Source: Azadirachta indica | Taxonomy: Eukaryota > Streptophyta > Magnoliopsida > Sapindales > Meliaceae | Reading direction: 5' to 3' | DNA length: 64,000 nucleotides | Assembly (NCBI GenBank): GCA_022749755.1 | Contig: CM040444.1 | Span: 1,371,026 to 1,435,025 of the forward strand | Shown: piece after piece, positions 9,161 through 60,839 of the stretch | Layout of the letters: every line of letters begins with the position of its first letter | Position numbering within the stretch: the first letter of the stretch is position 1 | Notes under the pieces: generated by a model | The model's input: the letters and a program-made list of their open reading frames with translations, nothing else | What the model was told of the DNA's origin: nothing | Databases searched by the model: none | Translations under genes and position numbers: made by a program

Positions 9161-9176
9161 ATATCTTGGGGTTTGG

Positions 9177-17076: not shown

Positions 17077-18663
17077 CATGAAACTCTGAATTTTTTGGCC
17101 TACCTTCTCTATTTTTCCAGTATCTCCTTCGACAAAATTCTTTTTTCGATATCCTCTTTGATGCATGAAGTGCACGTGCCACAGTCGACAACCGCGTGTG
17201 AAGAACACACACCATGGCGGCCAACTCCTATTGCAACACCACCGACTGATCTGTGCTCACCAGATTAATGTACGCGCCATCTTCCATCTACTTATTACTC
17301 TATTCCTCAATCTATCGCTTCCATAACTTCTGCCTCATATTTGAGTCTTTGGCATCCTCAACTACAATATATATCACTTAGTCGTCTTCGATCACTAATG
17401 TCTAGTGGTGTTCTGGGTACTGTTTCTCAAGACAATGTTGATTTTGTATCATGTCATTTAGTAAAACATATCGCTTTTCTTTTAATAACAGTGACTCCAT
17501 CTTTCATGCTCTATTTGATTTAATTTTGAATTTACCTTATGAAAAACTCATTTTGAATTTCCTAAAATTTATCGTGATTTTGCTAAAATGATTCAAACAC
17601 AATTTTTCTCTTTTATTAAAGTTTTTCACTCTAATAATGCTATAGAGTACAGGGATTATATGTTTCTTAATCTTCTTCAGATTAATGGTACTATTTGTCA
17701 TCGTCCCTGTCCTGACACGTCCCAACAAAATGTTAGGGTTGAAAGAAAACACAGACATATTCTTGAAATAGTTCATTCTCTTGTTATCTCTACTTCGTGT
17801 CTAGAATATTTCTAGGGAGAAGCTACTCTTATGACTGTTTATATTATCAACCAAATTGCTTCTATAATTATTGTTAATCAACATCTTATGAACATTTGTA
17901 TGGTAGTCCTCCAAATTATAACCTTCTTAAAGTTTTTAGTTGTGCATGTTTTGTTCTTCTTCAACCTTATGAAACACCAAATTAGAACCAAAGCACATCT
18001 ATGTTGCTTTTTGGGGTATCGAATTGAACATAAAAGTTATAAATGTTGAGATTTTGTATCAAATAGACTCCGTATCTCTCAATATGTGGTCTTGTAGGAA
18101 CATAATATATTTTCATCCATCTCCAAATTTATTTATGATCTTATTTAGCTTCTTTCTTTACTAACAACTTTATAGAAGTATTTCTTAATGATTCAAATGC
18201 AAGTTCTTTTGATGAGCACTCAATAGATTTGTCCAATATATCATTGTCTACTCTCGAAGCACCGACTATTTCCTTTGGATCCATATCTGACAACTCAATC
18301 GTTCCTAACTCTTCATCTTCTAATGTACTTCTTCACTATCCACTTGTGTAAGAGAGTTTTCTGTTAGACTTAGAGATTTTCTCTTCCACAATAGTTTAAA
18401 ATGAAAGATCTAGACCATTTTACATATTTTCTTGATATTGAGGTGTTCTCTGCTTTTAACAGATATTACCTTTCACAAGCCAAATATGCATATGATCTTT
18501 TTGCTCGAGCTGGTTTAACTGATAGTAAAACTATCTCTACTCCACTATAACCTAATACCAAATTTACACCAGTCAAAGGAACTATACTCTCTAATGTTAT
18601 GCTTTATAGATAATTGGTTGGTAGTTTGATTTATTTGATAGTCACTCGACTTAATATTTTTCA
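17077..18663 (+). pseudogene. Copia 2 left half: leader, integrase relic and RT C-end
   Basis: The leader (17,077-17,330) is followed by an integrase relic: LWHPQLQYISLSRLRSL (about 17,347-17,400), NAIEYRDYMF and TSQQNVRVERKHR (about 17,630-17,760), and LGYRIEHKSYKC near 18,010-18,048. Gag, protease and the catalytic RT core are missing. The next recognisable block is the end of RT, FTYFLDIEVF and YLSQAKYAYDLF (about 18,417-18,505), then LVGSLIYL and TRLNIF at 18,615-18,661, where it is interrupted. Many stops. The interruption falls inside a codon and the frame resumes at 60,840. Confidence 0.85.
18661..18663. repeat. TCA target-site duplication, left copy
   Basis: TCA immediately left of the CACTA-type terminus; the matching TCA is at 60,837-60,839. 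Three-base duplications are the rule for CACTA elements. Counting only one copy restores the copia 2 frame. Confidence 0.8.
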
Positions 18664-18695
18664 CGCTACTGGACTATTATACATTTAAAACTGTT
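18664..18695 (+). repeat. CACTA left terminal inverted repeat
   Basis: CGCTACTGGA pairs with CACTACTAGA of the other end in 8 of 10 bases. Similarity fades after that, though both continue into AAAC(T/G)GTTT-type words. Confidence 0.75.
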
Positions 18696-18814
18696 ATAAA
18701 ACGTTTTAAAAACTCTTTTAGAACGTATTACAAACCGTTTTCTTTTGACGTGTTTTAAAATATCAAAAACTGTTCTCTTTTGTTATGATAAAAAGACTTT
18801 TTTTATTAGTTTTT

Positions 18815-18990
18815 AAATTTATAAGAAAAGAATTTTAAATAGTATTCAAATTTATAAGAGAACATTTTATAACAGTACTTAAATTTATAAGAGGATGATA
18901 ATTAACAGTTGTTAAAATTTTATAAGAAATTTACTTTTAATAATATTTAGATATATAAGAAGACAATTTTTAATAGTTATTAAAATTTTT
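18815..18990 (+). repeat. CACTA left subterminal repeats
   Basis: Five units begin at about 18,815, 18,848, 18,881, 18,914 and 18,959. Each has AAATTTATAAGA followed by TTTTAATAGTATT-like sequence, with a spacing of 33-45 bp. Short subterminal repeats near the ends are typical CACTA transposase-binding regions. Confidence 0.65.
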
Positions 18991-21000
18991 TAAATTATAA
19001 TTCTTAAAAATAACAATAAAAATAGTTATTATAACAACATTCAATTAAATAAAAATTAATTTATCAAAAAAAAAATATACATATACATATATGTATATGT
19101 GTATATATATATAATATATGCAGAGGACAGTAATATCACTCAATAGTTCATACATATGTGTATCTTATTAATTGTTTAAAAATATATTAAACATTGATTA
19201 AAAAAAAAGTCTAAATTAAAAGTCTATATCATTACAAATTGCAAATATAAACAGTAGCACAACAGCAGCAGATCATGAATTAGAAACAGCAGCAAGCTGA
19301 TGTTAGATATCACATACATAGCTGTTTTATCCACTAATTATTATAAAATTAAAAATAACAACTGTAAAAGAAACAAGTATCTCCCAACAACAATATTAAT
19401 TTATAGCAGTATATATTTATAACTTTATCAATAGTTAGCTAAAACAACAATAAGTTATAGCAGAAACAACTATAACAAAGTAACATTAGGAGAAGAAAAT
19501 GGCAGAAAAATAAAAAGCACAGCTAATAACAAGCAGAACCGACAACAAGTAGTCAAGCAGTAGGGAGCTTGGTAATTAACAAGTAGCAACCTTATCTTTC
19601 GTAGTCTTTGCCATAGTTTTAAGTCAATGCACTTATCAATTAATTTATGACTTAATAAATTGAATAAAAGTAGATCAATGGACCTATAACCAAATATATC
19701 CATCAAAATTTGTTGGGTAAAACTTAAAAATATAACTAAAACAAAAGAATAAAAAAATACAATTATTTTAATTACAAAATTGATAAAACAAATTCAGCTC
19801 AATCTTTTCTCATCTCATCTATCTCTTCTTGTTTGTATGAGCATTTTTTTTTTAACTGCACATAATATTATACATAAAGAAATTAAAATAAAATAACATT
19901 AGAAGTCATGCATGTTATAAACAATTAATAAAATAAGTGAAATAATTACAAAGTTATAATTCTAACCTTTTGTTGGATGGAAGTATTTGGATCTTCAATA
20001 ATATCTTTCATATACTTCATTACATAATACTCACACTCTGAATTTATGGGTTGTTTAAGACACTACCAAAAATTTAAAAAAAAAATAATAAAATCAAATA
20101 TATTTTAATTAACATAAAACAATGAAAAAAATTGTTCAAATAATAAAAATCTAAATTATTTTCCTTCGGAAAGTCATATGAAGATGGTGTGTATATATAT
20201 AGTATATTAGCATATTAGTTAGTAAAAGTTGTACCAGCAGATCAATAACCAAATATATATATATATAATGTGATCGTATATATATACCGCGTATTATTTT
20301 TTTTCTTTTCAATGTGTAAGTACTAATTTGACTGATATATGAAACGAAAAGATTCAAAGTATTTACAAATTATAATTATATCATTCATTGAATTATTCTT
20401 AAAGATGATTTGAATGATTGATGGGTTACTTCAATTTTGGACCTAACTCTAGTTTTAAAGAATTCCTAGTTTTCAATTTTATTCATTTAATATTTCATGC
20501 TAATTTAAATTGATCAATAGTCAATAATTTTTTTTTTGAGACATTTGCAATAACCAATGATAGACCATTGTTTACCAACTGATATTTATGTTATTAATGT
20601 ATATTTTCAATGTTGTCAAACATGTATGCTCTCAGAAAGTAAATAAAATATTGGAGAAAATGAAAGAAATTATGGTATCTATCTAAATAAAGAAAAAGGA
20701 TTGAAAATAGTTGATGGTTAATTTTTTATATCCCACTTTACTTATACAGACATTAGAAAATGTTGGTATATATAGTAGCAGGTTATTGGCCCATAAAAAA
20801 TATCCTACACCAACTCCTCCCCCTCCCTTAGAAATAAAATAAAAAAAAGAAGCTAAATCATTATTAAGCTTTTCTTAAAAATATTTATTAGGTTAAGTTT
20901 TGATGCATTGACAAATTATTTGTTCTAATATTAGAATTGGCAACCATAATTTAAAGATTGGTTATCTTTGTCATTTATAAATCAAAGAAAAAAATTTCTA
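18991..21000. other. CACTA interior, no gene recognised
   Basis: AT-rich, with an AGCAGCA-rich tract at about 19,250-19,560 of the kind seen again at 30.2-30.5, 30.9-31.05 and 34.35-34.7 kb. Probably the 3' flank of the minus-strand second transposon gene. TATATA runs lie at about 19,080-19,115 and 20,180-20,290. Confidence 0.45.
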
Positions 21001-22527
21001 AAAAATAGTCAATAATATAATTTTTATGTACTTACATTGATTTTCTTTCAAATCAGTGTCTTTCTTCCAATTCTTTGTGATCGAACAATGAACATCTTCA
21101 TGGCTCTTTTTTTCAAAAAGAAAAAACAAAGAAATGATAGGAAAAGGAAAAAGAATATCATAAATTATGTTAAATGAACCGAAAAATTATATCTTAATGC
21201 AAATAAATGTATTACAAATTATACTTACTTATTAACAACTTGCTTGATGTTAAAGACAATTTCATTTTGAAATGGATCCAAAAAATATGTGATGTCATTA
21301 TATGGATCAATAATGACCAACATCCAGTGAAATCTATATTGATGGTAATATATATATATATATATATATATAATAAATGCATTAATTGAAATAAATTATA
21401 CTCAACAATTAATAATTAAATATATAATCATATAACATAATGAAAATACATACTCATGATAATATGGAGCAAAAAATATCTGATTCATCTTTGCATGTCT
21501 TATCCTTTCTGCGATTGAACGTACTCTATCAGCTTCTATTTTCCTACCGATTGAAGAATATCATTTGGATTCACAAATCCAATCATGTTAACCAAATTTC
21601 TCTCTTTGATGTAATTGTATAAGTGCCTAACAATAAAGTAAAAACTGTTGTTATTATAACAATAAATCTATACCTTTATCCTCAATAAATAAGTTAAAAT
21701 GATACACATTCATCCGGAAAATGTTAAATTACCTTATATACACTACTATACAAGTGATTTATATGAGGTCTATGCTTAAAAACTCTTGGATTATACTTTG
21801 AGTAACATTCTCAACAAATTCTTACCCAAAAATATTTTTTTCTATACTTCCTTCAATGGTGTCACTTGGAAGCATAGCTTTATTGGCATATACACCAATA
21901 GATTTCATAGAACAATATAACTAAGTTGACCATTGAACTTTTGGGTTTATGATTGGCTCCACTGATTTTGAGCTTAAATTGTTGAGTTGTTTGCTTGATT
22001 CCTAAATTGATGAAGCAAAATATTAAGAAAAAAAACTATTATAAATAAATAATTGAGAGAAAATTACAAATTAAAAAGTAAATTACCTTATTAGTCAATG
22101 GTATAATAAGATCTCTAGACCATGCGACAAATGATCCAATAGCATTTTGTATGGTTTCAAATTCACCAAAAACATGAATTGGTAAAGAGGCTAATGGAAT
22201 TATTGCCATATGAATAGATACACGTATATTTCATTTAATGGAATTCGGTGTATAGTGGCTTTTGGATCATTTGTTGGCATAATTGTACAATGAGTTACTA
22301 TATTCTCTCTATTGCTAATAGCAAGCTTGCATAATTTTTCCTCTCAAATGTCACATTCATTTCATTAAAAAGATGTTATACAATAAGATACAAATATTAT
22401 ATATATATATATATATAGTGAATAAGTAAAAATTTATTACCTTTATAGTTATATCACCATTAGCTTGATATTGTACTTTTGTGTTTGTCTCATGACTAGT
22501 CACCTTGACGGTTGTATCACAATTGGC

Positions 22528-23990
22528 TTAATTAGAACTCGTGGCTTTTGGGTTACTTGTTTTTAATGCTTCTAATTCACTTTGTAATGACTTCAACTTT
22601 TCTTGCATTTGTTGATTTTCCTCCAACATCCTTTTATTTTGTTCAATCAATAAATGCTGATGCTCTTGCATCATCTTTTGTTGCTCCTCAAAATAATGAT
22701 TACGTTTAGACATGTGAAAATAACTAGATGGAGTGATGGAATGACAACTCCTCTAACACTTCCTGAATGCTCAGGAGTTTGTAATGCCATTGTAAGAATG
22801 TCATTGTTGCCATCAACGCAAACATTCCTCAATTTAACTTATTTCGTAATTTTTTCCTATCAAAAGTATAGACAAATAGTTTTTTTTTTTAAAAAAAGAA
22901 TTAAGATGAAAGCCAATATAAATAAAAACTTTTAATAAAAATTAAATACTTTTTATTTAATTATTAATATAAATTATATATAAATAAGTGCAACATTAAT
23001 AACAAACTTACAATTCTTTCTACACATAATTTGACATTCTCGTTATCATATTTTATTTTCTTATTTTGATGAGCAAGCATCCAAATAACGGAACGGTCAA
23101 TTTGTTCATCTGTTTCAAGTTCACGTATCTGTAGACATTCAAATCCAAATTTATAAAATACTTTACATTAAATAAATTGATCAATAATTTAAACACTAAC
23201 CAATTCATCTTTCTTATTTGCATATCCAAGACATGAAAGTCGATATCTATATTTGTTTTGTCTCTGCCTCTCTTGTTGAACTTTTCTATGGCTCTATATA
23301 TATCATTACAACAATATAGTAAGAATTTTAAGTTTAAATTAAATTAAATTAAATATAAAAAAATTTAAATTACCTCACAAGAAAATCTTCTGCCAATCTA
23401 CTCTTTACAAATGATTGCCAATGTGATTATTTAATAAATTTTTAGTGTGTCGGTGGTTTTTTCAAACTAGCAGGGTTATTTCTGTGTGGCAATATATATT
23501 TCGATGTAAGACGATTTTTAAAAACTTTCCATCTTTCTGCTACTCTAGATAAAGCCTTTTTCTTATAAGCTTTATCAATATCACATGCCATCTACAAACA
23601 ATAGCATGAAATAAAAATTTAAAATAAATTAATTATTATAAAAATAATAAAACAATGATAATTAAGAATTGACATATGTTAAACCTCAATGCAACTCCAT
23701 ATATTTTCTTTAAATTCTTTTGGCATCCTGAACCATGTGCAATATGTGATTAGAACTATTGTATGTGCCAATATACCAATTAAGCTTCCCAACTTTTTTG
23801 ATGTTTTACCTATTGGTTGACTTTTCTTATTAAATACAATAAGTATCCTATAGCCATCACTTTTTTCTTTCGTAAGCTCTGGCAAAGTCGTTTGATTTCT
23901 GTCATTTCTTTTCCTCAAAAAATTTTCTGGAGAAGTTCCTACATCATCATGGTTGTCTTCCTGGAAAAAGGTCATGATACTAAAAACAGA
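22528..23990 (-). pseudogene. CACTA second gene, Ptta/En/Spm-type (Transposase_24-like)
   Basis: On the minus strand the pieces read, in order: a segment with GYRILIVFN...GKTSKKLGSLIG and FKENIWSCIEV (24,008-23,679); a segment with RWKVFKNRLTSKYI and PHRNNPASLKKPP (about 23,595-23,430); short pieces near 23,290 and 23,130 (DEQIDRSVIWMLAHQ); and a glutamine-rich coiled coil with EEQQKMMQEHQHLL ending at 22,528. This order and wording match the plant Ptta/En/Spm transposase family that accompanies TNP2 in CACTA elements, probably a DNA-binding protein acting at the element ends. Introns separate the pieces. Stops (for example TGA near 23,681 and after the PP block) and missing start context make it a pseudogene. 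Further decayed coding-like sequence may continue to about 21,700. Confidence 0.7.
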
Positions 23991-24574
23991 AAAATAAAAA
24001 AAAAACATGTGAGTGATACTAGTAAAAATATAATTAATTCAGCACTTTAAGATAAAATAAATCTTACGTACTAAATAAAATTTAGGATATGTTAATTACT
24101 AATGAATAAAATTTAGAATATCTTAATTACTAAGGTAATGTCTATAAAACTTAAAAAATAATTTATATAAATATATTCAAGTTGTAACCAACAGATATAT
24201 ATTTATATTACTAACAGTTATTTTAATAATCAACAATATAATTATATCATTAATTGTATTAAGCGAGTAATATCAATTACTATTAACCTACCAATAAATG
24301 ACTCAAAAAAATGAGAATATTAACTAAATTAAACTAAATTAAGGTTCTCACCACTGCATTATGAGTTTTTAAGAATGTAAAAAATAAAGCAAGAGGTTTA
24401 CTTTATAATTTACAAATAAAAATAAAGTAAATTGTTGTTTCTTCATTCACAGCCAGCAAAAAACTTAGCAGTAAGGTTACAAAAGTAATTGCAAACAATG
24501 TTAAATTTAAAAAATAGTAGCATTTAAAGCCGGTAACATACATCAATATTTACTATAAAAAGCTGAAAAATCTG

Positions 24575-24579
24575 TAAAA
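24575..24579. repeat. TAAAA target duplication of copia 3, left
   Basis: TAAAA directly before the 5' LTR; repeated at 29,820-29,824 after the 3' LTR. Confidence 0.9.
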
Positions 24580-24804
24580 TGTTAGAATGTACAGCTATTA
24601 TAATCTCAGATTATTAGGAATGAATTAATGTGTGTATAATTTAAGTAGAAAAGAGATTCAAATCTTTTCAATTATAGGATTGATTACGGTAGATAGCTTC
24701 CTTTTTAATTCCTAGAGAATTCTTTTTATAGTCCCTTAAGGCTGTGTACATGGAAGTGTTTTTCAGATCTAATAAAATTATCTTTTTCCTCCTATTTTTC
24801 AACA
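24580..24804 (+). repeat. Copia 3 5' LTR
   Basis: TGTTAGAATGTACAGC...TTCAACA, 225 bp, matching the 3' LTR apart from about seven substitutions and a 4-bp extra AATG-type stretch near 24,630. Confidence 0.95.
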
Positions 24805-24816
24805 TGGTATCAGAGC
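24805..24816 (+). other. Copia 3 primer-binding site (tRNA-iMet)
   Basis: TGGTATCAGAGC, the exact initiator-Met tRNA complement, directly after the LTR. Confidence 0.95.
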
Positions 24817-24975
24817 TCTAGGCTATTTTTTTTCTGGTTTCATTCGTTTTCTTTTTGTTCCAGCCTTCATTGCTGTGTTTTCATAACTGGCCTTTATTGC
24901 CAAAGTTTAATCTCTTAAGTTCTTCTCTTCTGATTAAAAGCCTAGTTTCTCTCTTATTTCCCATTCCGAAACATC

Positions 24976-25898
24976 ATGTCTGCCTCTGAGATTACAAATG
25001 CTTCTGTCCAATCTGACGAAGTTAATTCAAGACAAGCGATAGGCAATCTACAGAATGTTCGAGCAACATATAGGCTAAATGGTAAGAATTATTTAAAATG
25101 GTCCCAATTTGTTCGGACTTATTTAAAGGGCAAAGAAAGGCTCAGCCATCTTCTAGGAACAGGACCAAAGAAAGGAGACCCGGGATTTGATGCATGGGAT
25201 GAGACAGATTCTATGATTGTATCTTGGCTATGGGATTCAATGGATCCTGAGATCAGTGATACCTGCATGTTTTTGACTACTGCAAAAGAGATCTGTGACT
25301 TAATTCAACAGACTTATTCAAAAGCCCGAGATGCTGCCCAAGTGTATGAGATTAAAGTCAAGATGGGTGCAACCAAACAAGGAAGCAAATCAGTAACTGA
25401 GTATGCAAATTCTCTGAAAAATCTATGGCAGGAACTAGATCATTATCGGGTGATAGATGTGAAATGCGCAGAAGATGCTGCAACTTTGAAAATTTTCATT
25501 GAGAAAGATCAAGTCTATGATTTACTAGCTGGACTTAATCTTGAATTTGATCAGGTGAGGGTTCAGATTCTTGGCAAAGGAGAGACGCCATCGTTGGAGG
25601 AGACAATTCTCTAATTCGAGGAAAGGAAAGTCGAAGGGGTGTTATGCTTGAACCTCAAGTCCTCGAAGGATTAGCCTTGGTTACTAAAACTGAACAACAG
25701 CAAACACAAGAAAGTGGAAAAGCAGACCTGCCCAAATTTTCAGGAAAAGACAACAAAGATAACCGAGACAACCTTTGGTGTACCTACTGCAAGAAACCAA
25801 GGCATACTAAAGAACGTTGCTGGAAATTGAATGGCAAGCCATCGACTTCAAGCAAAGAATGGGGTTATCGAGGAGGGCAGCAAAGATTTCACAACTAA
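24976..25898 (+). pseudogene. Copia 3 gag with CCHC knuckle, frameshifted
   Basis: ATG at 24,976 opens a 212-codon frame with the gag N-terminal blocks YRLNGKNYLKWSQFVRTYLKG and DSMIVSWLWDSM, then the retrotransposon gag domain (TYSKARDAAQVYEI, SVTEYANSLKNLW). It ends at a stop at 25,612-25,614. The protein continues in another frame from about 25,615, giving VMLEP and the knuckle CTYCKKPRHTKERC near 25,778-25,820. It ends at TAA 25,896-25,898, itself an in-frame lesion because the same frame continues into the protease. One indel near 25,610 thus cuts gag. Confidence 0.9.
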
Positions 25899-27455
25899 GC
25901 TCATCTAACAGAGCAATTAAGTCAAGGTGACAAACAAAAGCAAGAAGGATTCAGCAGTGAGGAAATTGAAAAACTCAGAAACTTGATAGGATCTTTAAGA
26001 AATCCTTCTAGCACATGTTCATTGGCACTCTCTGGTAAGTCCCCATTCTCCTCTGGATTTCATGTCTCAGAAAAGTGTTTTGACAACTCCTGGATAATTG
26101 ATTCGGGCGCTATTGACCACATGACCTATTCTTCACAATATTTTAGTACCTATAAACCATGTCCAAGCAGTAGGAAAATTGTTGTAGCAAATGGTTCTCT
26201 TGCTACTATTGCAGGTTTTGGGGATATTTGTGTCACACCTTCTATTATTCTAAAAGATGTCCTTCATGTGCCAAAGTTGTCTGCCAATCTTGTTTCAATT
26301 CAAAAACTTACAAAAGACCTAAGATGTCATGCAAATTTCTGTCCGTCTTATTGTGTTTTTCAGGACCAGGATTCGGGGAGGAGGATTGGACTTGCTAAGA
26401 AGAAGAATGGACTATACTATCTCAAAACACCCAGTCCCTCAAAGAAAAACATGAATAAATTGTTCGTTTCCCTACTTAGTTCCTCAAATAAAGACACCAT
26501 TTGGCTTTATCACTTTCATCTTGGTCATCCGTCATTTAAAGTTTTAAAAGTTTTGTTTCCTACTTTGTTTAAGGGATTAGATCTTACAAATTTTCATTGT
26601 GATGTTTGTGAGCTTGCAAAACATACTCGTGTATCTTTTCCTATTAGTAATGATAGATGTTCTCATCCTTTTGATTTGATTCACGGTGATATTTGATTCA
26701 CGGTGATTTGTTTCTCTAATTGATGATTGTACTCGTGTCACCTGGATTTTTTTGCTCAAACATAAATCTGATGTAGGTAGTGTTGTTTCTAATTTCCATT
26801 CAATGGTTCAAAATCAATTTGGGGTAAAAATTAAAAGATTTAGGTCTGACAATGCACGAGATTTTTTTTATCAAGTTTTATCTTCCTACTTTCAAAAGGA
26901 GGGAATCATTCATGAGTCATCATGCATAAACACACCACAGCAAAACAGAGTTGCAGAAAGGAAAAATGGCCATTTACTTAACACCACTCGAGCATTATTA
27001 TTTCATGGGAATGTTCCGAAAAACTATTGGGGGAAGCTGTCCTTACTGCCACACACATAATTAATAGACTACCCTCAACAGTATTAGATTTTAGAACTCC
27101 CGTGGAAGTCCTTTCTAACTTTTATTCACACTTCAAAACTTCAAATGGTCTTATACCTAAAGTCTTTGGGTGTACTTTTTTTGTTCACCTTCATAGTCAC
27201 AACAGAGGAAAATTAGATCCTAGAGCAATCAAATGTGTGTTTATTGGCTATTCATCTACACAAAAGGGATACAAATGTTATCACCCTTCTTCAAGAAAGT
27301 TTTACATATCTGCAAATGTTACCTTTGTTGAAAACAAACCTTTTTTCACACACTCTAATCTTCAAGGGGAGATTTCACTAATAGAAGATAAAAACTTTGA
27401 CTTTGGCTCTCTTGATCTATCATCGGCTCCATTTAATTCTCAAGATCCTCACTAA
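25899..27455 (+). pseudogene. Copia 3 protease and integrase, broken
   Basis: The protease motif IDSGAIDHMT (D-S-G-A) lies near 26,097-26,126. The post-protease DVLHVPKLSANLVSI block and an integrase HHCC region (HFHLGHPSFKVLK, CDVCELAKH) follow. At about 26,675-26,720 the 13-bp GATTCACGGTGAT is doubled and the DIWGP-to-FIDD region is lost, shifting the frame. The core resumes at 26,752 with RSDNARDF and NTPQQNRVAERK. A one-base loss in a G run near 27,030 shifts it again into 27,027-27,455 (HIINRLPS, VFIGYSSTQKGYKCY). Confidence 0.9.
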
Positions 27456-27620
27456 AATGTCATAGTTGAGTCCACTAAACCTGTATCTGTCCAACCTGTG
27501 TCAGAGTTAGTCCCAAAATTTACTGAACCTCTATCTACCCAATCTTTGCTAGGGTCAATCCCAGAATCTGTCCCTACTTAAGTTTCTATACCTATTTATG
27601 ATTCTTATAGATTTCCACAG

Positions 27621-29591: not shown

Positions 29592-29598
29592 GGGGGAG
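29590..29598 (+). other. Copia 3 polypurine tract
   Basis: GAGGGGGAG immediately before the 3' LTR, just after the pol stop codon. Confidence 0.85.
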
Positions 29599-29819
29599 TG
29601 TTAGAATGTACAGCTATTATAATCCCAGATTATTAGGAATGAATTTGTGTATAATTTAAGTAGGAAAGAGATTCAAATCTTTTCAATTATAGGATTGATT
29701 ATGGTAGATAGTTTCCTTTTTAATTCCTAGAGAATTCTTTGTATAGTCCCTTAAGGCTGTGTACATGGAAATGTTTTTCAGATCTAATAAAATTATCTTT
29801 TTCCTCCTATTTTTTAACA
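29599..29819 (+). repeat. Copia 3 3' LTR
   Basis: TGTTAGAATGTACAGC...TTTTAACA, 221 bp, followed by the TAAAA target duplication at 29,820-29,824. Confidence 0.95.
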
Positions 29820-29824
29820 TAAAA

Positions 29825-30890: not shown

Positions 30891-31279
30891 ATAATTTTAA
30901 TCAAAACAAAGCAGCAACAAAAGAACACCAGAATAGCATGAAGCTAACAAATATATACTAAACAACCGCTCCAACAAAATTCAAGCTCTATCAGAAGATC
31001 AACATATGACTATAGCACAGCCCAACAACAGTGAAGTGTATCCATAATAATCTAAAACCAATTCCTCTTTTGAAGAACTTTTCTATATCATTTTGGTTGA
31101 CTCCATGGAAAAAAGCCATGATACTGCAAACAATTTTTTAAAAAAAAAAGGTTAGCCATGCTATTTAAAATATATAATTTATTCAACACTTCAAAGTAAA
31201 ATAATATAAATGAATAAAATTTATGATATCTTAATAAAAAAATGCTTAAAAACAAAATGAAGAAAAAAAATATAAAAAC

Positions 31280-34890: not shown

Positions 34891-34904
34891 TGACTACCGG
34901 ATTT

Positions 34905-48060: not shown

Positions 48061-48577
48061 AAATTTCGTGGGTTCTCCGTTCTCCCAAGAGTTACAGACA
48101 CAAATTTGAAAGACCGACATACAAGATCATCTTAAAACAAAGAGAAGCAAAACGTTCAAGATCAGATCTTCCGCAGACCCGCAGTCAAGCATCCTTATTT
48201 TTCGTCAGGATCAGGTGCACTTGCTCTAATCAATCAATCAATCTTTACTTTCTGCATTAACACTTGTTTTCTCATTCTGTTGCCTTAAACTGTCTTCCAG
48301 TACTAATAGTGCTATTTTCTACTTGATTTTGTTTTAATTATTCCTAGCTTTGTTTCAGATATTAGTTAATTTATCTGATCCAGCTGTGATCTGTTGCTTA
48401 AAAACTTTGCTGATCATCGTTAACTTATCTGATCTAGTTAACAATTTTATTTCTAGTTTTTATTATTAGTTCTTCTTTTCCTTTTAACCATTCCTTGTGT
48501 GGCTTTACTCGGTTAAACTTCCAAACAGAAAAAAGAAGAAAAAAGCCCTGAAATATTTATTTAATCAGAAACAGGCA
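48061..48577 (+). promoter_or_regulatory. NLR 5' UTR with leader intron
   Basis: The composition rises from very AT-rich to mixed at about 48,065. A donor-like GGATCAG|GTGCAC at 48,215 and an acceptor AAACAG at 48,571-48,574, four bases before the ATG, suggest a 360-bp leader intron, common in NLR genes of this type. No clear TATA box was assigned. Confidence 0.5.
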
Positions 48578-51436: not shown

Positions 51437-51519
51437 TATCAGTAACTGCTCCAGCATCCAAGGATATCATCGCAGAGGACGATCATGAGGAACTTATGAA
51501 TGTGCTCTTCAATAATAAG
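51437..51519 (+). pseudogene. NLR exon 1 tail, out of frame
   Basis: From 51,433 the next frame reads VTAPASKDIIAEDDHEELMN and VLFNNK up to donor AAG|GTACGG at 51,520. This linker fits the family and joins in phase 0 to the next exon, so it is the original end of exon 1, cut off by the frameshift. Confidence 0.75.
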
Positions 51520-51633
51520 GTACGGTCTTCCATACATGTATATGTATGTTTGCATTTTTCTGTCTACTTTGTTTTTCAATCATCAGAAATTTATCTACGA
51601 ACAGTTTTTCAAGAAGAATAACTCTTTCTGCAG

Positions 51634-52164
51634 GTCTGTTTTCCAACCCTGAAGAACGTGAGACTGTCATCACTTCATTGCATCGAACAGTTATGGGTTG
51701 ATCAATTTCCGACAATGTTTACATCATCTTTTCAAAATTTAACAACATTGGTGGTGTCCAATTTTAGTCGTCTGAAATTTCTGTTCTCATATTCAATGGT
51801 TAATAGTCTTGTGGGACTCAAAGAACTTGAGATAGGGGATTGCGAGTCAATGGAATGGATAATCGAAGAAGAAACATGCTCTGCCTCTAATTCCAATTCC
51901 TCGATGAAGGTGCAGGAGGAGTTCCGTATGGCTAGCAGTAGGGTGTTTCATGTGTTTCCTCAATTAACCAAGCTAGAACTTTGGGAATTACCGAAACTCA
52001 AAAGTATATATCAAGGAATACATATTCTAGAATTTTCGAACTTAAGAAATATCCAATTAACAAGATGCTGGAATGTGGAAATGCTATTTGGTTCTTCAGA
52101 ATCAAAATTGTTGAGTTGGAAAATAGAGAGCCAACAACACTTGTTCTTGGTTGATCTTCATAAG
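51634..52164 (+). pseudogene. NLR LRR exon 2
   Basis: Acceptor TTTCTGCAG at 51,633 and donor AAG|GTATGA at 52,165 bound an open 177-codon exon in phase 0. LRR blocks include CFPTLKNVRLSSL, LWVDQFP, FQNLTTLVVSNFSRL and HVFPQLTKLELWELPKLKS. The exon itself is open, but it is behind the exon 1 frameshift. Its 3' part is the paralogue of 1,213-1,446. Confidence 0.85.
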
Positions 52165-52452
52165 GTATGAAATTAAATGAAGTTACTCAGCACTGCACCA
52201 TTACCATATTATTTTACTTTTCTTTTAAATTTTTTTCGTTAAAAAGAAATCCCGTCCAAATCAATTATATTAATGTTTGCATAGAAATGCACAACGGTGG
52301 AAAGGAAAATTAATGACCGACCTCTACCAAATAGCCCATAAAATTTCCCCATTAATTTTCTAAAGTTTGATGAAATGGACAACTTTTGTTCATATATTTC
52401 TTTCTCTTTCATTGGCTCCCTTTTCATAATGTCCTTTGAATCTTTATTTCAG

Positions 52453-52941
52453 GTACGATTCCCTAGTTTGGAGGCATTACGAATTACTGGAATGAATAAC
52501 TTGAGAAAAATTTGGGATCACCAGCTTGATGATTTGGGTTCTTTTGGAAATTTAAAGAGCTTGCGTGCATTTTATTGTTGTAAACTGACGAATGTCTTTC
52601 CACTGAATTTAATAGTAAGACTTGAGAGACTGGATTATTTGAACTTAAGATATTGTTATTCAATAAAAGAGATAATTGAAGAAGAATCAAGCTCATCTAA
52701 TTGCATGATGGAGGGGTTTCCTAGCAGGCTTCAGGTGTTTCCTCAATTAACCAAGCTGGAACTGGAGGGACTAAAAAAACTCAAAAGTATATATCAAGGC
52801 ACGCACATTTTAGAATGGCCAGCATTAAAACATTTAGAAATAACGGGATGTGACGAAGTGAAGACTTTATTTGGTTCTTCAAAATTATGGAGTTGTCAAA
52901 AGAAAAGCCAACAACCAATATTTTTGGTTGATCATCATAAG
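52453..52941 (+). pseudogene. NLR LRR exon 3
   Basis: Acceptor TTTCAG|GTACGATT and donor AAG|GTATGA bound an open exon of 163 codons in phase 0 with LRR blocks FPSLEALRI, LGSFGNLKSLRAF, LNLIVRLERLD and FPQLTKLELEGL. Paralogue of 2,584-3,069, which carries stops. Confidence 0.85.
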
Positions 52942-53048
52942 GTATGAAATCAAATTAATTTTAAATAATTAATTGTCTATATATTTATTATTTATTTTTC
53001 TATATAAATGATAGCTAGCAATCTCAGTAAAAAAAAACTAATAAAATT

Positions 53049-53051
<3 letters not shown>

Positions 53052-53099
<48 letters not shown>
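53052..53099. repeat. (TC)n(TA)n microsatellite in NLR intron
   Basis: A run of CT dinucleotides passes into TA dinucleotides. In the outer paralogue the same intron position holds about 230 bp of unrelated sequence (3,180-3,420). Confidence 0.95.
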
Positions 53100-53232
53100 A
53101 TTATCTAATTATTAAAAATTTGTGTCTCATCTTAACTAAAAAGAAAACCTACAGCGATAAGTATAATTTAAACCTACTTTAAATCTAAGTGGATATTGAC
53201 TTTTTTCTATTTTGTTTTCTTAATATTATTAG

Positions 53233-53665
53233 GTTACATTCCCCAATCTGACGATTCTGAAAGTTACGAATTGTCTTGAGTTGAGATTTTTGGCAATATT
53301 TTCAACAGTGGAAAGTCTGGTGAAACTTACAAAAATGGAGATAGATAATTGTGCAATGATTGAAAAAATTATAGACATGGAAGTTGGAGAAGAAGTGAAG
53401 GAGGATCCTATTGTTTTTAGCCAACTGGAATATTTGAGCTTAGAAAGTCTTATCAAGACTTGAAAGCTTTTGTTCGGAGAATTACACTCTTGAGTTCCCG
53501 TTCTTGAAACAAGTAATAGTGAGATCGTGCCCAAACATGAAGATTTTTTCTCAAGGGGTCGTACGCACACCAATACTGCATAAAGTGGAATTGGATTTTA
53601 AAAAGAATGATTGGCGTTGGGAAGGCAACCTTAACTCCACCGTACAACAAATGTTCAAATAAATG
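53233..53665 (+). pseudogene. NLR LRR exon 4, frameshifted
   Basis: The open part reads TFPNLTILKV, TVESLVKLTKMEIDNC and FSQLEYLSLESL and stops at 53,461. One extra T (AGTCTTATCAAG; the outer paralogue has AGTCTATCAAG) near 53,451 shifts the frame. The shifted frame continues the family pattern (ENYTLEFPFLKQVIV, CPNMKIFSQGV) until a second lesion, TAA near 53,659, where the paralogue has GAA. The donor ATG|GTATG at 53,666 is kept. Confidence 0.8.
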
Positions 53666-55099
53666 GTATGTATTTTATTAATTTACCAATAAATTTTATT
53701 TGTTTATTTATTTATTTTATCTTCTTTTATCTCAAGGAGTTGTAACTTATCTCATTATCTCAAACAACTAGGATACCTTCTTTTATCTTAGGAGTTTTCC
53801 TGTAGTAAGGCAAATGACTTATAAATTTCTAAAATTTGTCCTAATTAATCTTAATAATATCAAATATATTTATTGAAGTTTCAGTTTATTGAAAGTGACG
53901 ATTATGCCCTATCAATAATAGTTATTTAACAAAAAAATTATTAGATTAAAATTTGACAAAATATATAATATATTTATCAAAAATAGATTAATAAAATAAA
54001 CCATAATATTATTTTCTAATACATTAATGATATAATATTTATTAATAAACTATAAATTTATATAATTTATAAATAACATATTTTATTCTTATTATATTTT
54101 ATATATTTTAGTGATACATAAATATAAATAATAATATTGAATTAGAATATATAATTTACGATTTATTTTATTTATTTTCAAGTATGTAATTAATGTTTAA
54201 TTGTTAATATAGTATTACTATCAATAATCAATATGTTATAAAATGATATTTATTATTATTTTAATATTTATTTTAGAGTTTGAAAATAATTTGTTTAGTC
54301 AACTACCATTAAACAAGGGTATGATTATTATTTTAATAAATGGGGACCTTCATGGTGTTTTAAAACCATTAGAACTAATTAATCCAATAGACCATATTTT
54401 AGAGACTTATATGTCTTTTGTTCTTTTATTAAGATATTATGTTGCTGAAAACTTAAAATATTAGAGATTGTTTAAATACATGTTCAAGAACAAAATATAG
54501 TGAAGATGAGTTTTTAAAATTAATTAAAATAATTTTCTTAAAATAATTAATCTACTTAATTTTAAAAACAATAGCAAGACATTCTCACTATTTTCATTTA
54601 TAAAAAATTCTTAACAAACACAAATATTTTTTTGTTCTTAAAAGTAGCATTTTTATTCTTTTCAAAAACATCTTTAAAATATTAACAATTAAACAATTAT
54701 TGTTTTTACATATATTATTTTTTTCTATAGAAAAAACTATGAATTAAAGTTATGCTTCAGTTTAGCTCATGTCATTTTCAATAACTTATGCTAAAAATGA
54801 ATTGGATTATAGCTCACGGGAGGATATGACAGGCTTGGTATTTAATATTGGAGTATTTTGACTTTAAAATCACAATTGTAATGGCATAGAAGAACTATAA
54901 GTTAAATATACTTAAAAAGACAAAGGAATGGGTCGCACTAAAAATTGATACTATCACATACTTTGTTAATTAATGAACTTTTAAGGTATAATTAAAAAAC
55001 CACAATCTCAAAGGAAGCCTTATGAGTGAGAAAAGTACATGTTATTATAAGCTTTATTCCACATACTGTGTTTGAACTGGAATGTTTTGATTTTGCTAG
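53666..55099. other. NLR intron 4, AT-rich
   Basis: No coding sequence. It is matched by 4,100-5,215 over most of its length, which shows that the duplication covers introns as well as exons. Confidence 0.6.
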
Positions 55100-55541
55100 G
55101 TTGGGTTTCATTACAGTTATGAATTGAAACTCTCACAATTTCCACATTTGAAAGAATTGTGGCATGACCAAGCTCTTGGCGTCAGCAACTTCAGCAATTT
55201 AGGAAGGCTGGTGGTTGATGATTGCACGCTTATGCCGAGTGCTATTCCAACCAGTCTGTTGCAATTCTTAAACAAGTTGCAAGAGTTGGAAGTAAGGAAT
55301 TGTGATTCAGTAGAAGAGTTATTTCATTTGGAAGAGCTAAATTTTGTTGAAAATTGTGGGACACTATTTCCTACACTTAAAAGGTTGTCTATCATAGATC
55401 TTCCGAAACTCAAAATTCTGCAACTTCAACGGGGATATAATTGAATTGCCAAAGTTATACTCTTTATCGATTGAAAATTGCCCAGATATGGTGACATTCA
55501 TGGCCAATTCCACACCTGTACAACCTCTCTTTAACGAAAAG
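55100..55541 (+). pseudogene. NLR LRR exon 5, frameshifted
   Basis: Acceptor TTTTGCTAG at 55,099; LRR blocks LSQFPHLKELWHDQ, NFSNLGRLVVDDC and LNKLQELEVRNCDSVEELF. The frame stops at about 55,442 after LPKLKI. In another frame the family text resumes (IIELPKLYSLSIENCPDMV) to the donor AAG|GTGATT at 55,542. An indel near 55,424 explains the break. Confidence 0.8.
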
Positions 55542-55857
55542 GTGATTCTCAGTTAATTACTCTATCTACTCAATATTATTTTGTTGTACATTTTTCTTCG
55601 ATGATTTAATGATATTATTAATGTCATTATTATCAACTAATCTTTCACTATGAATTATAAAATAGTCTTCTAATTGCATTTTCTCTTTCCTAAATCAGGT
55701 TGGATTTAGCATCAAATTTGATGGATATTAGAAGATCATTTGATTTAATTCATATTTTCCTGTGGAATTCATATATCTATATATATATATATATATGCAT
55801 GGACGACAATGCAGATTTAGATTATTTTTATTAACACTCAATTTGGTTGACTTTCAG

Positions 55858-56439
55858 TTTGTATTTCCCATTTTGGAGGACTTAAAGCCGTCTAAGCTAC
55901 CCAAATTGTTGCGTTTGTGCGAGGAAAATTCTCATACCAACAATGTTTTCCAAAAGTTGTCAACTCTAGAAGTATTAGAATGTTGCAAGTTAGAAAAACT
56001 TGTGCCTTCTTCGGTGTCTTTCCAGAGTCTAACCAAAATGGACGTATCAAAGTGTGACGGATTGATGAAGTTAATGACACTCTCAACTGCTAAAAGTTTG
56101 GCGAGGCTTCGAACAATGAAGGTAACTAATTGCAAAATGATTGAAGAAATAATGCCTGCGGAAGACAAAGTGAAGGAGGATTGTATTGTTTTCAGCGAAC
56201 TGGAAGTTCTAGAACTTAGCTGTTTGCCAAGCCCTGAAAGCTTTTCTTTGGGGTATTACGCACTTGAATTGCCAAACTTGAAACGAGTAATTGTAAAAGA
56301 GTGTCCAAAGATGGAGATATTTTCTCGAGAAGTTTTAATCACACCGAAGCTGCAAAGATTACACCTAACTGAATTAGAGGACGAAGGCCGATGGGAAGGC
56401 AGCCTTAATTCTACAATACAAAAATTGTTAGAAGAAATG
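55858..56439 (+). pseudogene. NLR LRR exon 6
   Basis: Acceptor GACTTTCAG at 55,857 and donor ATG|GTATGT at 56,440 bound an open 194-codon exon. LRR blocks include FPILEDLKPSKLPKLLRL, FQKLSTLEVLECCKLEKL, SLARLRTMKVTNC and LPNLKRVIVKECPKMEIF, and it ends in NSTIQKLLEEM. Intact in itself but downstream of four lesions. A possible small extra exon at 55,699 (GFSIKFDGY, then stop) was not counted. Confidence 0.8.
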
Positions 56440-56548
56440 GTATGTATATATACACATCTCCCTTGCATTTGCTCAATTTTGTTCTTTTTATTATATTAAC
56501 CTGCCGATTTGTTACATATTCTACTCATACTTGTATATATATTCGCAG

Positions 56549-56644
56549 AACATGCAGAGTTCTAAAGAAATTGAGCGGAAGTCATCCTTCATATGTAATG
56601 AAGCAGAGCAGCTGTGTGCAATCATGCAACCTAGTCTTTTTTAG
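56549..56644 (+). pseudogene. NLR terminal exon
   Basis: After the acceptor ATTCGCAG, a 31-codon frame in phase (MQSSKEIERKSSF) reaches TAG at 56,642-56,644. This is my weakest exon call; it rests on splice signals and on being open. Confidence 0.45.
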
Positions 56645-57178
56645 ACATTTTTTTTATGTTGTATTTGAACTTAATTAAATTATTACAATCATTAAGCTAA
56701 TCATTTATGTTTCCAATACTTGGATTTATGGTCTGTTGTTGAAGATATACTAGTATGGGATAACTAAATAATTACAAGTTAGAACTATTCGAGAATGAAA
56801 GTATATAAACATTTTCAAAAAATGTATTGTGGATTGCATTGTTTTCAAAAAATGAATTTAAAATTTTCGTAACGAATTGATTTAGATAGTTATTAATTTA
56901 AATTTTTTTATTTACGAACTGAAATTTTATTTTAAAGCTTGGTTTTATGGTTTTTCTTGGCTTTAATTTGAATTTTGAAATGGAGTTTAAGTTATTAAAT
57001 CTTTAATTTGGAAGCTAATTTAATGTTATGTCATTAGTGCTTTTTTCTTATAGTTATTGTTTAATATTTCCATATTTCAATATTTCTTGTCATTAATGCC
57101 TCTTTTTTTCCTGGGTCGGAGTGTCTTGCAGTGTAACCTACTCAATAATACAAGCCTTTATTTATGAGATATTCCTAT
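56645..57178. other. NLR 3' flank
   Basis: No gene. Bases 56,930-57,100 match 5,285-5,455 of the outer paralogue (GTTATTAAAT/GTTATCAAAC, GAAGCTAATTTA blocks, TGTCATTAGTGC), marking where the duplication resumes after the missing last exons. Confidence 0.6.
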
Positions 57179-57790
57179 TGTCGCGTATATTATAAACGCA
57201 AGTGCATGTGTCACAAGCAAGCAATATAGTGATGAAAGAATATCGGTTCCATAAGGAAAGTTAAGCCAATAATTACTAAAAATGATTAATTTGTGAATTT
57301 ATTTAAAGAATTCAAAATGGATTGATTGAGAAAATTGAATAAACTAAAATTGATTACTAACCAACTTAAAGGATTCAACTAATGGAAAATAATTAGGGCT
57401 AATGATTTTATCTTATTTGGCCTCATTCAATTTTTTAAAAGATGTTGATCTGATTTAATATCTGTGCTGTTAATTAATTATCCTACTTTATTCAACTGTC
57501 TCTCTCGAGATCAGCCGAACCTACTTCATATTTAATAATTCATTATATCTCTATGTGAATATAATTAAATGGAAGTGTATTACAATTGGTGATAATTTTC
57601 AAAAATTACGTAAACCATATCAGTACATCTCTATCTAATATGCAATTTACGTTATTTATTACTTGATCAAGGATTGCCGATATGTATCAAAAATTATTCA
57701 ACAAGGGCGTGAGATTTCTAACATCCGGTAAGAGCAATTAAGGATGCATCAGTATCAAGTAGACTACTTCAACACTTTGGTTTCATATTT
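57179..57790 (-). repeat. Partial LTR, inverted relative to 58,139-59,208
   Basis: Reading left to right, this stretch is the reverse complement of the LTR end at 58,620-59,208. It starts TGTCGCGTATATTATAAACG (the other arm's complement starts TGTTGCATAAATTACG) and shares CAAGTGCATGT, AACTAATAACACAGGTATTAAATC-type and TCTCTCTCGA(G/A)ATCAG words. Confidence 0.65.
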
Positions 57791-58138
57791 TTAGCAAATA
57801 AATCCCGATATTCAATTTCCACCACTTCTACAATTCCCGCTCACCCAAGCAGATGAAAATAACAATGCACAATGAGAGGTAAGATTCATTAAGTGTGGGG
57901 GAGGAATTTTTAGAAGTGTTTGTTGAACGTAGTGAGTTACTACTAATCACACACGTACATGAAAAAAAAAAAACTATTTTGGTTCAAGTTTAACTTATCA
58001 TGTTCTAGGAGTGTGTTTGTTTGATTTTTTTTCTTTTGTTAATATTATGTTTGTCTGCTTTTAGTCTTTTCCCTTATATCTGGTTCTGTTGGTTTGATTT
58101 GCTTGAGAACAAGCAAACATTCAAGCATGGGGGTATTT
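57791..58138 (+). other. Retroelement internal relic with polypurine tract
   Basis: Non-coding. It ends CAAGCATGGGGGTATT just before TGATAAGTGCG, the form often seen at the 3' LTR junction of some plant gypsy-type elements. AGTGTGGGGGAGG at 57,894 is similar. Confidence 0.45.
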
Positions 58139-59208
58139 GATAAGTGCGTAAAAACACACACTTATCATTTACTCTTTAATTTGAATTGTTTGTTTAATCC
58201 TCTACTTACATTAATATTTAATGTATTTTACTTGTATTTTTTGTAGATCACGAGAATTGGCTATTGCACCATTCATCATTCTCTTGGACATCAAGTTCAA
58301 GTTTTTGGAGAGAACTAAGAGATAGAGAGAGAGGAGATTAGAAGAATTTTTGGGCATCAAGTTCAAGGTTTTCAAAATCAAGGCTCTCCTAATTTAGTTT
58401 TATCTCTTTCCCTTGTCTTTAAACCTTCGTTTTGAATTGAACAATAGTGAAGTTATTGTTTTTTATGTTGTCAATTGTTAAATTTTTTATTGTGGATTTT
58501 GAACTTTATCTGATGTGTAGTTAAACTTATTTTTTAAGACAATGATATAATTTATTTGAAACATTCAATTTCTGTAATTGTGTTAATTGTTTTGATTTAA
58601 TATTTAGTGTTACGTATTCATTATGATGATTAATGCGTTTTAATATTTTACTAGTATTTAAATTATTTATGGATTAATATGAACTGAGAAGTGATTATTA
58701 TTTAAATTAGGTAATGAATACCGTAAATTACATGTTAGACAGAGATGTACTAATATGATTTATGTAGTTAGTTAAGAATTATCACTAAATGTAAGATATT
58801 TTAATTTAATTTAATTCATATAGAGATATAGTGAATTATTTAGGTGTAAAGTAGATTCGACTGATTTCGAGAGAGACTCTCGAATAATTTAGGATAATTA
58901 ACTAATAACACAGGTATTAAATCAGAATAACATTATCTACAGAATTGGATATGAATAAATATAATGAAATCATTAACCCTAAATCTTTCCATCAATTGTA
59001 TTTGTTTTAATTAAATTGTTCAATAGTTTATTTTACTTTATTTTGTTTTAATTTTTCTCAATTAAATTAATTCAATTTTTTCAGATAAATTCATTACTTA
59101 ATTATCTTCGATAATTAATAAATTAACTTTTCTTGTGGGACCAACACTTTTTTACCACTGTATTACTTGTTTGCGATACATGCACTTGTTTTCGTAATTT
59201 ATGCAACA
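58139..59208 (+). repeat. Probable LTR (about 1.07 kb)
   Basis: Begins TGATAAGTGCG with a short inner palindrome, (GTG..TTTTTACAC..)ACTTATC, and ends near TTATGCAACA. Its first 130 bp are the same sequence that starts the units of arrays A and B (35,509, 36,142, 41,385). The element family is not assigned because no coding domain accompanies it. Confidence 0.5.
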
Positions 59209-60378
59209 TATTTTAATTTTTAATTTTTGGTTTTCAAGTATTTATCTTTTTTATTTTTTATTTTTTCTCTAATCGATAATTGAAGTTCATTAAGTGACAA
59301 GAAAAATAGTCAAATAATATAAAAATAATTAAAAACAATGATATTTTTTTATCTAAAATTTTCAACATATATCTTATTTTTTTCAACAAATACCATCATT
59401 TTTAATTATTTTTATTTTGTTTGACTATTTTTTTACATGTAGTGAATTTATGATTATTATTGGTTAATATATTATTGTTATTTTAATTATAGATTAGGGT
59501 TAAAATTCAAAGAAATTTGAATAAAAAAGTAGAAAGTATTTAAATTCAAAAATCAAATAAGAAAAACGAAAATTTTAAAATAAAAATTAAAAAGAAGAAA
59601 AATAAATCAAACTTTTATTTTGTTAATTGAAATTAAATTATTTTCATGTAATTAATTTATTTATATAAAAAATTAATTAAAAATTATTAAAAAAGAGCAT
59701 TTATGTCATTATATTAGTTAAATAAAAGTTAAAGATATTTTTGTTATTAAAGTAATCAACATTGAGTCAACAGTTAATTTTAACAAAAAATTAACGAAAA
59801 GAATGTGTGTTTAATAATTATATATATATAATTTAGAGATTTTATGATTATAAAGTAGATTTCAATTTTGTTAATGTAAAATTGAAAATTGATATATATA
59901 GATATATATATATATATATCTGTGTGTGCATTTATTGTTCAAAGTCTACCATTATACTATTAAGCAAATTAGTAGATTAAAAATAAAAATAAAGTCACTG
60001 TTTAAAAACCCGCCCAATACATAAACAGTATCTCTTAATTACTATTCATTAGCTTTATGTACATATGTATATATATACTCTACCTATATTTTGTTTGATA
60101 TTCTTAATTCAAACACAAACATCTTTAATTACATTTATTAAAATTAAATAAGTAAAATTTTTAATTTTTATATATTTACTATCAAAAAATTTTTGACTAA
60201 ATTAATATTAAAAAAAACTCAATCTCACATGGTATAGTAAATGAAGACAAGATTAAAAATTATTTTTTTTAATTTTTAAATAGAAATCAATTAAATTAAA
60301 ATTATTCTCTAAAAAGAAGAATATTAAAAAAATAATTTTTTATTATTTAAATAAAAGTATATTTTATTATAAGTCTTC
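59209..60378. other. AT-rich non-coding DNA near the right CACTA end
   Basis: No gene. A TATATA run lies at 59,893-59,920. The segment 59,925-60,010 resembles 40,515-40,610. Confidence 0.45.
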
Positions 60379-60800
60379 TAAATATATATTTTAGAAAATG
60401 GTTTGAAAATTATTTTTTATTTTAAAAATCAAGAATAATTTTACTAAAACTGTTATTTAAATATGTGAAAAAAGAAAACGATTTAAAAATTATTTTTATA
60501 TTTTTTTAAAATAAAAATAAGTTTATTAAAACTTCTCTAAACACATATTTTAAAAGACCGTTTATAAAAATCTTTTTTATTTTTTAGAATTAAAGTTGAT
60601 TGTATTAAAACTGTTCTCTAAACATATATTTTAGAAGACGGTTTATAAAAATCGTTTTTATTTTTTAAAATTAAAGTCGGTTTCATTAAAATAGTTCTTA
60701 AAATATATATTTTAGAAAACGGTTTACAAAAATCGTTCTTATTTTTTAGAATTAAAGACAGTTTTTGAATAAACCATCTTAAAAAATAAAAACCGTCTTC
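60379..60800 (-). repeat. CACTA right subterminal repeats
   Basis: About five units with spacing of 75-90 bp begin near 60,379, 60,455, 60,537, 60,622 and 60,699. Each has AAACATATATTTTAGAA, GACGGTTTATAAAAATCG and TTTTTATTTTTTAAAATTAAAG. The ACGGTTT/AAACCGT word also occurs near the left terminus (AAACCGTTTTC at 18,735). Confidence 0.75.
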
Positions 60801-60804
60801 TATT

Positions 60805-60836
60805 TAATGTGCTCTTTTAATTATTTTCTAGTAGTG
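60805..60836 (-). repeat. CACTA right terminal inverted repeat
   Basis: On the minus strand it reads CACTACTAGAAAATAATTAA, a textbook CACTA terminus. Confidence 0.85.
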
Positions 60837-60839
60837 TCA
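60837..60839. repeat. TCA target-site duplication, right copy
   Basis: TCA immediately after the right CACTA end; see 18,661-18,663. Confidence 0.8.

Follow-up and report, generated by a model that had tools for sequence, protein, structure and literature searches.

Tandem arrays of NLR genes evolve by unequal exchange (birth and death), and CACTA elements that carry captured gene pieces are also already known. In PMC8903248 and PMC13317346, the formation model for Pack-CACTA elements starts from two neighbouring elements with complementary terminal deletions and host DNA between them; a PIF and a Mariner family (not CACTA) described in PMC8903248 average about 0.3-0.5 kb. A 64,000-nucleotide stretch of the Azadirachta indica genome (C5:1371026-1435025, where C5 is contig CM040444.1), called the window here, contains a near-complete NLR gene, NLR1, in a 42-kb CACTA element that is bounded by a target-site duplication and lies within a copia retrotransposon, copia 2. 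This is a notable variant of the known systems. No case of an NLR inside a CACTA element was found in the open-access literature, judged by title and the start of the abstract, which is not proof of absence. The best explanation, to which we give a probability of about 60%, is that the CACTA element inserted first and that the NLR entered it later by a local rearrangement.

The locus resembles Pack-CACTA elements in having host gene DNA between CACTA ends, a 3-bp target-site duplication, and truncated left and right element parts. It differs in holding a near-whole NLR plus 6.6 kb of upstream DNA, in forming a 42-kb unit, and in lying beside the sister gene of its own contents. It also differs in that no mobilisation of the NLR was seen: searches of the genome (280.8 Mb in 21 contigs, with at most the best 40 candidates scored in each search, here and below) found only the window and a segmental copy that includes the flanks. 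With NLR tandem arrays the locus shares same-strand paralogues, mosaic similarity, common upstream DNA and truncated remnants, but one member here lies in a resident transposon that is itself within a retrotransposon. Plant CACTA elements of the En/Spm type have the same CACTA ends, 3-bp duplication, subterminal repeats and tnp2/DUF4218/DUF4216 sequences, whereas the window copy has a broken tnp2, has lost most of its second gene, and is nearly twice the length of the 23-24-kb copies.

The CACTA element occupies positions 18664-60836 of the window (42,173 bp), and the sequence reads TCA directly outside both ends, at 18661-18663 and 60837-60839. The right end, on the reverse strand, is CACTACTAG, the canonical terminal inverted repeat. 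The left end is CGCTACTGG, with two substitutions in 10 bases, and the same left junction at C5:7.246 Mb carries the canonical CACTACTAG. When the ends of eight other CACTA copies were read, six had a matching 3-bp duplication, and C4b and C3 had no clean one. The six represent five distinct insertions because the flanks of C4a and C4c are common; the boundaries of C4a, C6 and C4c, which were 1-3 bases off in the script, were corrected by eye. Subterminal repeat arrays are found at both ends (18683-18988 and 60311-60764). A preliminary description of this DNA had reported the CACTA ends, the duplicated TCA at both borders and the subterminal repeats at each end, and all of these were found again, the ends also in the family copies.

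The two halves of copia 2 keep one frame over the CACTA join (TRLNIF/HAVHLF), as had been claimed, with two stops within 40 codons to the left of it. The left and right flanks within copia 2 were searched genome-wide separately, and the best 40 candidates were scored for each. In five uninterrupted copia copies, 69-77% identical (C14:17.959, C8:10.481, C8:13.383, C3:15.076 and C12:4.818 Mb), the separate left and right matches overlap by exactly 3 bp at the junction, which is what a target-site duplication predicts. The remaining listed copies either stop before the junction or are without a listed partner. An uninterrupted copia 2 was what the preliminary description had suggested looking for, and these five relatives are present in the same genome. 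The insertion of a CACTA element into copia 2, with CACTA ends and a 3-bp duplication, is supported by these observations. There is one target-site duplication, one copia and one outer copia duplication, which rules out the idea that the NLR merely lies between two CACTA elements that inserted independently in different targets.

Copia 2 lies on the forward strand and has its own target-site duplication, GAAAT, at 16888-16892 and 61567-61571. It consists of a 5' long terminal repeat (LTR) at 16893-17066, with an approximate right edge and 86% identity to 61400-61566, a left half at 17067-18663 recognised from homologous copia copies, and a right half with the 3' LTR (61400-61566) at 60840-61566, recognised by self-comparison and the flank search. 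At 18378/18379 it is without about 0.6 kb that is found in the C5:7.246-Mb copy and in other copies of that copia. The intergenic flank on its left (14737-16892) runs on into the right flank at a paralogous locus: C5:7115001-7118000 follows window 14737-16855 (in pieces, 78-86%), then has 11 bp, and then follows window 61564-61975 and onward. Because both outer flanks are 11 bp apart there, this is an empty site for copia 2 and all its contents.

To see what the CACTA element is made of, the window was compared by blast with the eight other CACTA copies for which both ends had been read, and also with the right end at C5:7.154 Mb and with the C5:7.2-Mb locus. The long form of the family is about 23-24 kb (C11, C9, C7), and C4b, at 33.7 kb, carries at least one further insertion. 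Short forms are 7-8 kb (C4a, C4c, C3) or 2.5 kb (C6). The family backbone in the window covers 18664-24574, 29823-41854, and from about 57666 to 60836. It forms a left part, CACTA-L (18664-41854, forward strand), which matches the C11, C9, C7 and C4 copies, and a right part with subterminal repeats, CACTA-R (57669-60836, forward strand), which matches the family copies. Within CACTA-L is copia 3 (24580-29820, forward strand), with LTRs that are 95% alike and TAAAA on either side. It has no counterpart in the four long CACTA copies compared or in the C5:7.24-Mb copy, and it is a later insertion nested in the CACTA backbone.

The statement in the preliminary description that the block includes both CACTA genes did not survive. 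The tnp2 transposase gene (31496-33495, reverse strand) is broken into short frames: Pfam identifies pieces of Transposase_21, DUF4218 and DUF4216 on three separate frames, and the DUF4216 piece scores below the Pfam curated cut-off. The C9 copy has an 808-aa open tnp2 frame with Transpos_assoc, Transposase_21 and DUF4218. The second gene, which in the C11 copy is Transposase_32 (398 aa), keeps only its last ~0.2 kb in the window.

A DUF620 fragment in three frames (37037-37635, forward strand, Pfam) lies inside 37009-37953, which matches the long copies. An AP2/ERF gene piece (39253-40026, forward strand, with the AP2 domain at about 39.56-39.70 kb) is likewise in the family backbone. Its frame of 267 codons is open in C11 and C7, has one stop in C4b, is in two frames in C9, and has three in-frame stops in the window; its coordinates in family copies include 8819-9619 of L021 and 7510-8310 of L034. 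Most of the frame is present in six places (C11, C7, C4b, C9, the window and the 7.2-Mb locus), with a 39-residue piece in C3, and the ratio of nonsynonymous to synonymous differences (pN/pS) is about 0.35-0.6 between three CACTA copies. The AP2 DNA has been mobilised with CACTA, with copies on C11, C7, C4, C9 and C5. The preliminary description had grouped DUF620, AP2/ERF and the NLR as unrelated host sequences. The DUF620 and AP2 sequences are real, but both belong to the CACTA family backbone, unlike the NLR, which is a member of the surrounding array.

None of the eight other CACTA copies has a counterpart of the NLR or of the stretch 41855-57178 by blast, which rules out the NLR as a part of the canonical CACTA element. 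In the window, 15.8 kb with the NLR stands in place of 2.0 kb of backbone that is present in four long copies, and this lost 2.0 kb, as seen in C11, includes most of the Transposase_32 gene. The two inner joins that result are non-homologous. At the left join (41854|41855), CACTA passes into the upstream sequence of the NLR, called U, inside an A-rich stretch, and the 7.2-Mb locus has the same join. At the right join (57668|57669), about 3 bases are common to a repeat, T, and the CACTA sequence that follows. T (57178-57668, forward strand) represents one end of a dispersed repeat, with an intact edge towards the NLR and a cut-off edge towards the CACTA sequence; the cut-off at about 57668 was judged against three other T copies with flanks read, from the best 40 of 559 candidates. 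Homology of the NLR downstream DNA with the C5:7.06-Mb paralogue stops at 57179, where the T terminus begins. Judged from these sequences, both inner joins look like illegitimate joining. The preliminary description had presented the 42-kb block as a single CACTA insertion, which stands for the ends, the target-site duplication and the copia 2 frame, but the inside of the block is composite (copia 3 and U-NLR1-T).

T also has an inverted relative (74%) at 58711-59208, within the CACTA backbone. Among the best 40 of the 559 T candidates, C6 has two inverted pairs that span about 1.5 kb.

NLR1, a CC-NB-ARC-LRR gene, occupies 48497-57178 together with its downstream DNA, on the forward strand, and was recognised by Pfam and by its relatives. 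Its first open reading frame runs to 51436 and further LRR frames continue to about 56.5 kb, with NB-ARC and RPS2-type LRR domains found by Pfam. The CC-NB-ARC part of the frame is open, so this region is intact as first described. The LRR part is truncated because the frame is broken by 1 base near 51.43 kb when compared with NLR2 and the Melia protein P0001; with its coding region interrupted and its LRR incomplete, NLR1 does not qualify as a functional CC-NB-LRR gene. NLR2 also has a frame break of its own, further upstream in the gene. The best protein relatives of NLR1 are from Melia azedarach (77%).

At the DNA level NLR1 is 93% identical to C5:7217925-7220885 and 92% identical to its sister NLR2 (C5:1443578-1446543), which is on the same strand 24 kb downstream. 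U (41855-48496, forward strand), identified by genome search and locus comparison, is common to both genes: it matches, in pieces, the NLR2 upstream DNA from C5:1435539 and the 7.2-Mb locus. Outside the block, NLR0 (1215-5432, forward strand) is a 3' LRR remnant of the same NLR family, 74-85% identical to the NLR1 3' region and NLR2. NLR0, NLR1 and NLR2 are clustered same-strand paralogues, all on the forward strand within about 80 kb (C5:1.372-1.451 Mb). On the other side of the block, the NLR2 upstream DNA runs leftward into a segment called S (61567-64000, forward strand), which adjoins the right LTR of copia 2 and runs on past the window into U and NLR2 (C5:1435539-1451468). As S passes straight into U and NLR2, only about 3 kb separate the block from the sister of its own contents. 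A paralogous NLR at C5:7.107 Mb has parts of S upstream of it, arranged in the same order.

Several other features of the array were recorded. Window 46757-47874, upstream of NLR1, is very A+T-rich (13% GC for 46001-48000), has inverted internal similarity, and matches dozens of places in the genome on both strands. Window 1550-2393 is a dispersed repeat of about 840 bp with an inverted self-match, inserted in the NLR0 remnant. The NLR clusters at C5:18.43-18.47 Mb and C5:7.10-7.13 Mb have near-identical scores against the window and look like recent mutual copies, judged by scores alone. Pairs with near-equal NLR scores against the window also occur on C14, C9 and C3.

The second locus, at C5:7.21-7.27 Mb, is inverted and follows the window from position 1 through copia 1, the left half of copia 2, CACTA-L and U. 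Its identity to the window is 97% over 1-4992, 89% over 5957-9164 and 92-96% over 10357-18674; from copia 1 to U it is mostly 92-96%, dropping to 88-89% in part of U. Beyond about 48.3 kb of the window, the locus is instead about 99.8% identical to NLR2, and the likeness lasts to the end of the stretch read (97.7% over the whole of C5:1439995-1455025). The locus (C5:7206001-7270326) is therefore a mosaic, about 4% different in the CACTA element and copia flank and about 0.2% different in the NLR2 part, which indicates that exchanges occur inside the NLR array. After its NLR, the 50 kb that was read (C5:7206001-7256000) contains no CACTA-R, right half of copia 2 or S, and the genome searches found the right junction of copia 2 nowhere else. 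A separate CACTA right end lies 50 kb beyond this stretch, with other flanks.

From its sequence, the 7.2-Mb locus is a large segmental copy, or a displaced haplotype, that exchanged with the NLR2 side. A second transposition is ruled out, as the flanks of the window were copied too. The search for other copies of the block, which the preliminary description had also suggested, was thus successful in one place, with the left join only, and what it found is a segmental copy including flanks and not a transposition. The CACTA/NLR join was found elsewhere only in this 7.2-Mb copy, and no NLR-bearing unit was found in different flanks.

Based on these structures, we suggest that an ordinary CACTA element of about 23 kb would have inserted into copia 2, which was already in the intergenic DNA between NLR0 and NLR2. 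A later local rearrangement in the array would then have brought a neighbouring NLR and the DNA upstream of it (U-NLR1-T) into the CACTA element, with the loss of 2.0 kb of CACTA sequence. Likely routes would be break repair that copied from the array, or else a duplication or unequal exchange with a subsequent deletion. The locus would look like a single transposon with cargo because its outer ends and target-site duplication are those of the original empty insertion. CACTA ends and a target-site duplication are equally expected if a ~23-kb CACTA element came first and the NLR later, so they are no proof that the NLR was inside at the time of insertion.

The ages of the two CACTA parts were compared with the old copy C4b as the yardstick and C11, C9 and C7 as the young copies. 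The distance of the window to the young copies was 1.1-1.7 times that of C4b in six CACTA-L pieces and about 1.3 times over CACTA-R; the 7.2-Mb copy has no value for the first CACTA-L piece, where its match is too short, and none in CACTA-R. The reading of these distances leaves out the extra left-end loci L003-L008, of which L003, L004, L006, L007 and L008 were badly aligned (mostly 44-61% distance) and L005 was comparable in part only. The distances of CACTA-L and CACTA-R are compatible with one old resident element.

Several points weigh against this order of events. Within CACTA-R, a single piece of 0.85 kb (58790-59640) differs by 4.6% from C4b but by 7.0-7.7% from the young copies, and no CACTA-L piece shows such nearness to C4b as strongly, so from this piece there may have been two source CACTA elements. 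No haplotype was found with the CACTA element at this site and without the NLR, and for this reason the order of events, and the entry of the NLR after the insertion, are things we infer. The history calls for at least two local events or for a single large repair. The distances do not reveal the order of events, nor do they tell later entry apart from the Pack-CACTA alternative below: U differs by 5.6-7.0% among its three copies, the CACTA sequence at 20771-34102 differs by 4.25% between the two loci and by 5.5-5.9% from the young copies, and the CACTA distance varies from 3.7 to 9.4% along the element. Finally, the 3' half of NLR1 (52.2-56.8 kb) differs by 19% from NLR2, with other copies at best about 82-85% identical. 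NLR2 alone therefore cannot be the source of NLR1, and the same difference rules out NLR1 as a simple duplicate of NLR2.

The alternative that survives best, possible but clearly less probable than later entry, is a giant Pack-CACTA element: two neighbouring same-orientation CACTA copies would have flanked NLR1 elsewhere in the array, and a hybrid of about 37 kb (without copia 3) would have transposed into copia 2. The anatomy fits the formation model as set out in PMC8903248 and PMC13317346, with a left CACTA without its right part, a right CACTA without its left part, and host DNA between. The truncated left and right parts have 2.0 kb missing between them and are of broadly similar age, with the one 0.85-kb exception, whose nearest copy differs from that of CACTA-L and which may point to two elements. 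The outer ends and the target-site duplication enclose the whole unit, the C9 copy has its open 808-aa tnp2 frame, and same-orientation local insertions are reported for such elements in PMC8903248. Set against this, the unit was not found again in new flanks, the element would have needed to land 3 kb from the upstream DNA of the sister gene and in the same orientation, and the history requires two CACTA insertions, two deletions and one transposition.

The site patterns along U, taken from three sequences (NLR1, NLR2 and the 7.2-Mb copy) with no outgroup, point both ways. Over 44.4-48.3 kb the 7.2-Mb copy differs from NLR1 at 225 sites and from NLR2 at 248, a slight nearness to NLR1 of the kind that giant Pack-CACTA descent would favour. 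Over the 2 kb that adjoin the left join, 39 sites pair NLR1 with the 7.2-Mb copy, 62 pair NLR2 with it, and 36 pair NLR1 with NLR2, so here NLR1 is not the nearer of the two to the 7.2-Mb copy, contrary to what shared descent after insertion would predict. That a ~37-kb Pack-CACTA captured a near-complete NLR with its upstream DNA and moved locally as a unit seems doubtful on balance; mobilisation in trans by a family member with an open tnp2 would be possible in principle. The preliminary description had the NLR travelling with the CACTA element. This is not shown by the comparisons, and with no unit in different flanks we judge it less likely than local entry.

It is improbable that the arrangement is an effect of assembly or haplotype, in which 57.7-61.6 kb or the order NLR1-CACTA-R-NLR2 would be mis-joined and the 7.2-Mb locus would be the other haplotype, misplaced. 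On the right, both the inner join and the outer junction were found only once in the assembly, and the 7.2-Mb mosaic, with its NLR2 part at about 99.8% and its CACTA and copia flank about 4% off, would also be possible for two haplotypes. A misjoin, however, is not expected to give a matching TCA, a continuing copia frame and a matching outer GAAAT, and divergences of 3 and 11%, as seen in stretches of the left flank, are high for alleles. Entry of the NLR segment as cargo of another mobile element, for example one bounded by T, is very unlikely, for although T lies exactly at the right inner junction, self-comparison finds no T copy at the left junction, the sequences read at the two joins show no obvious direct repeat, and the CACTA side of T is truncated.

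This CACTA family is shown to carry and amplify an AP2/ERF reading frame. If the NLR-bearing unit moved whole, it would be a direct route for DNA transposons to relocate near-complete immune receptors. If instead the NLR entered a resident CACTA element, which is more likely, the locus illustrates how a later arrival can pass for transposon cargo: ends and a target-site duplication, however perfect, do not date the cargo between them.

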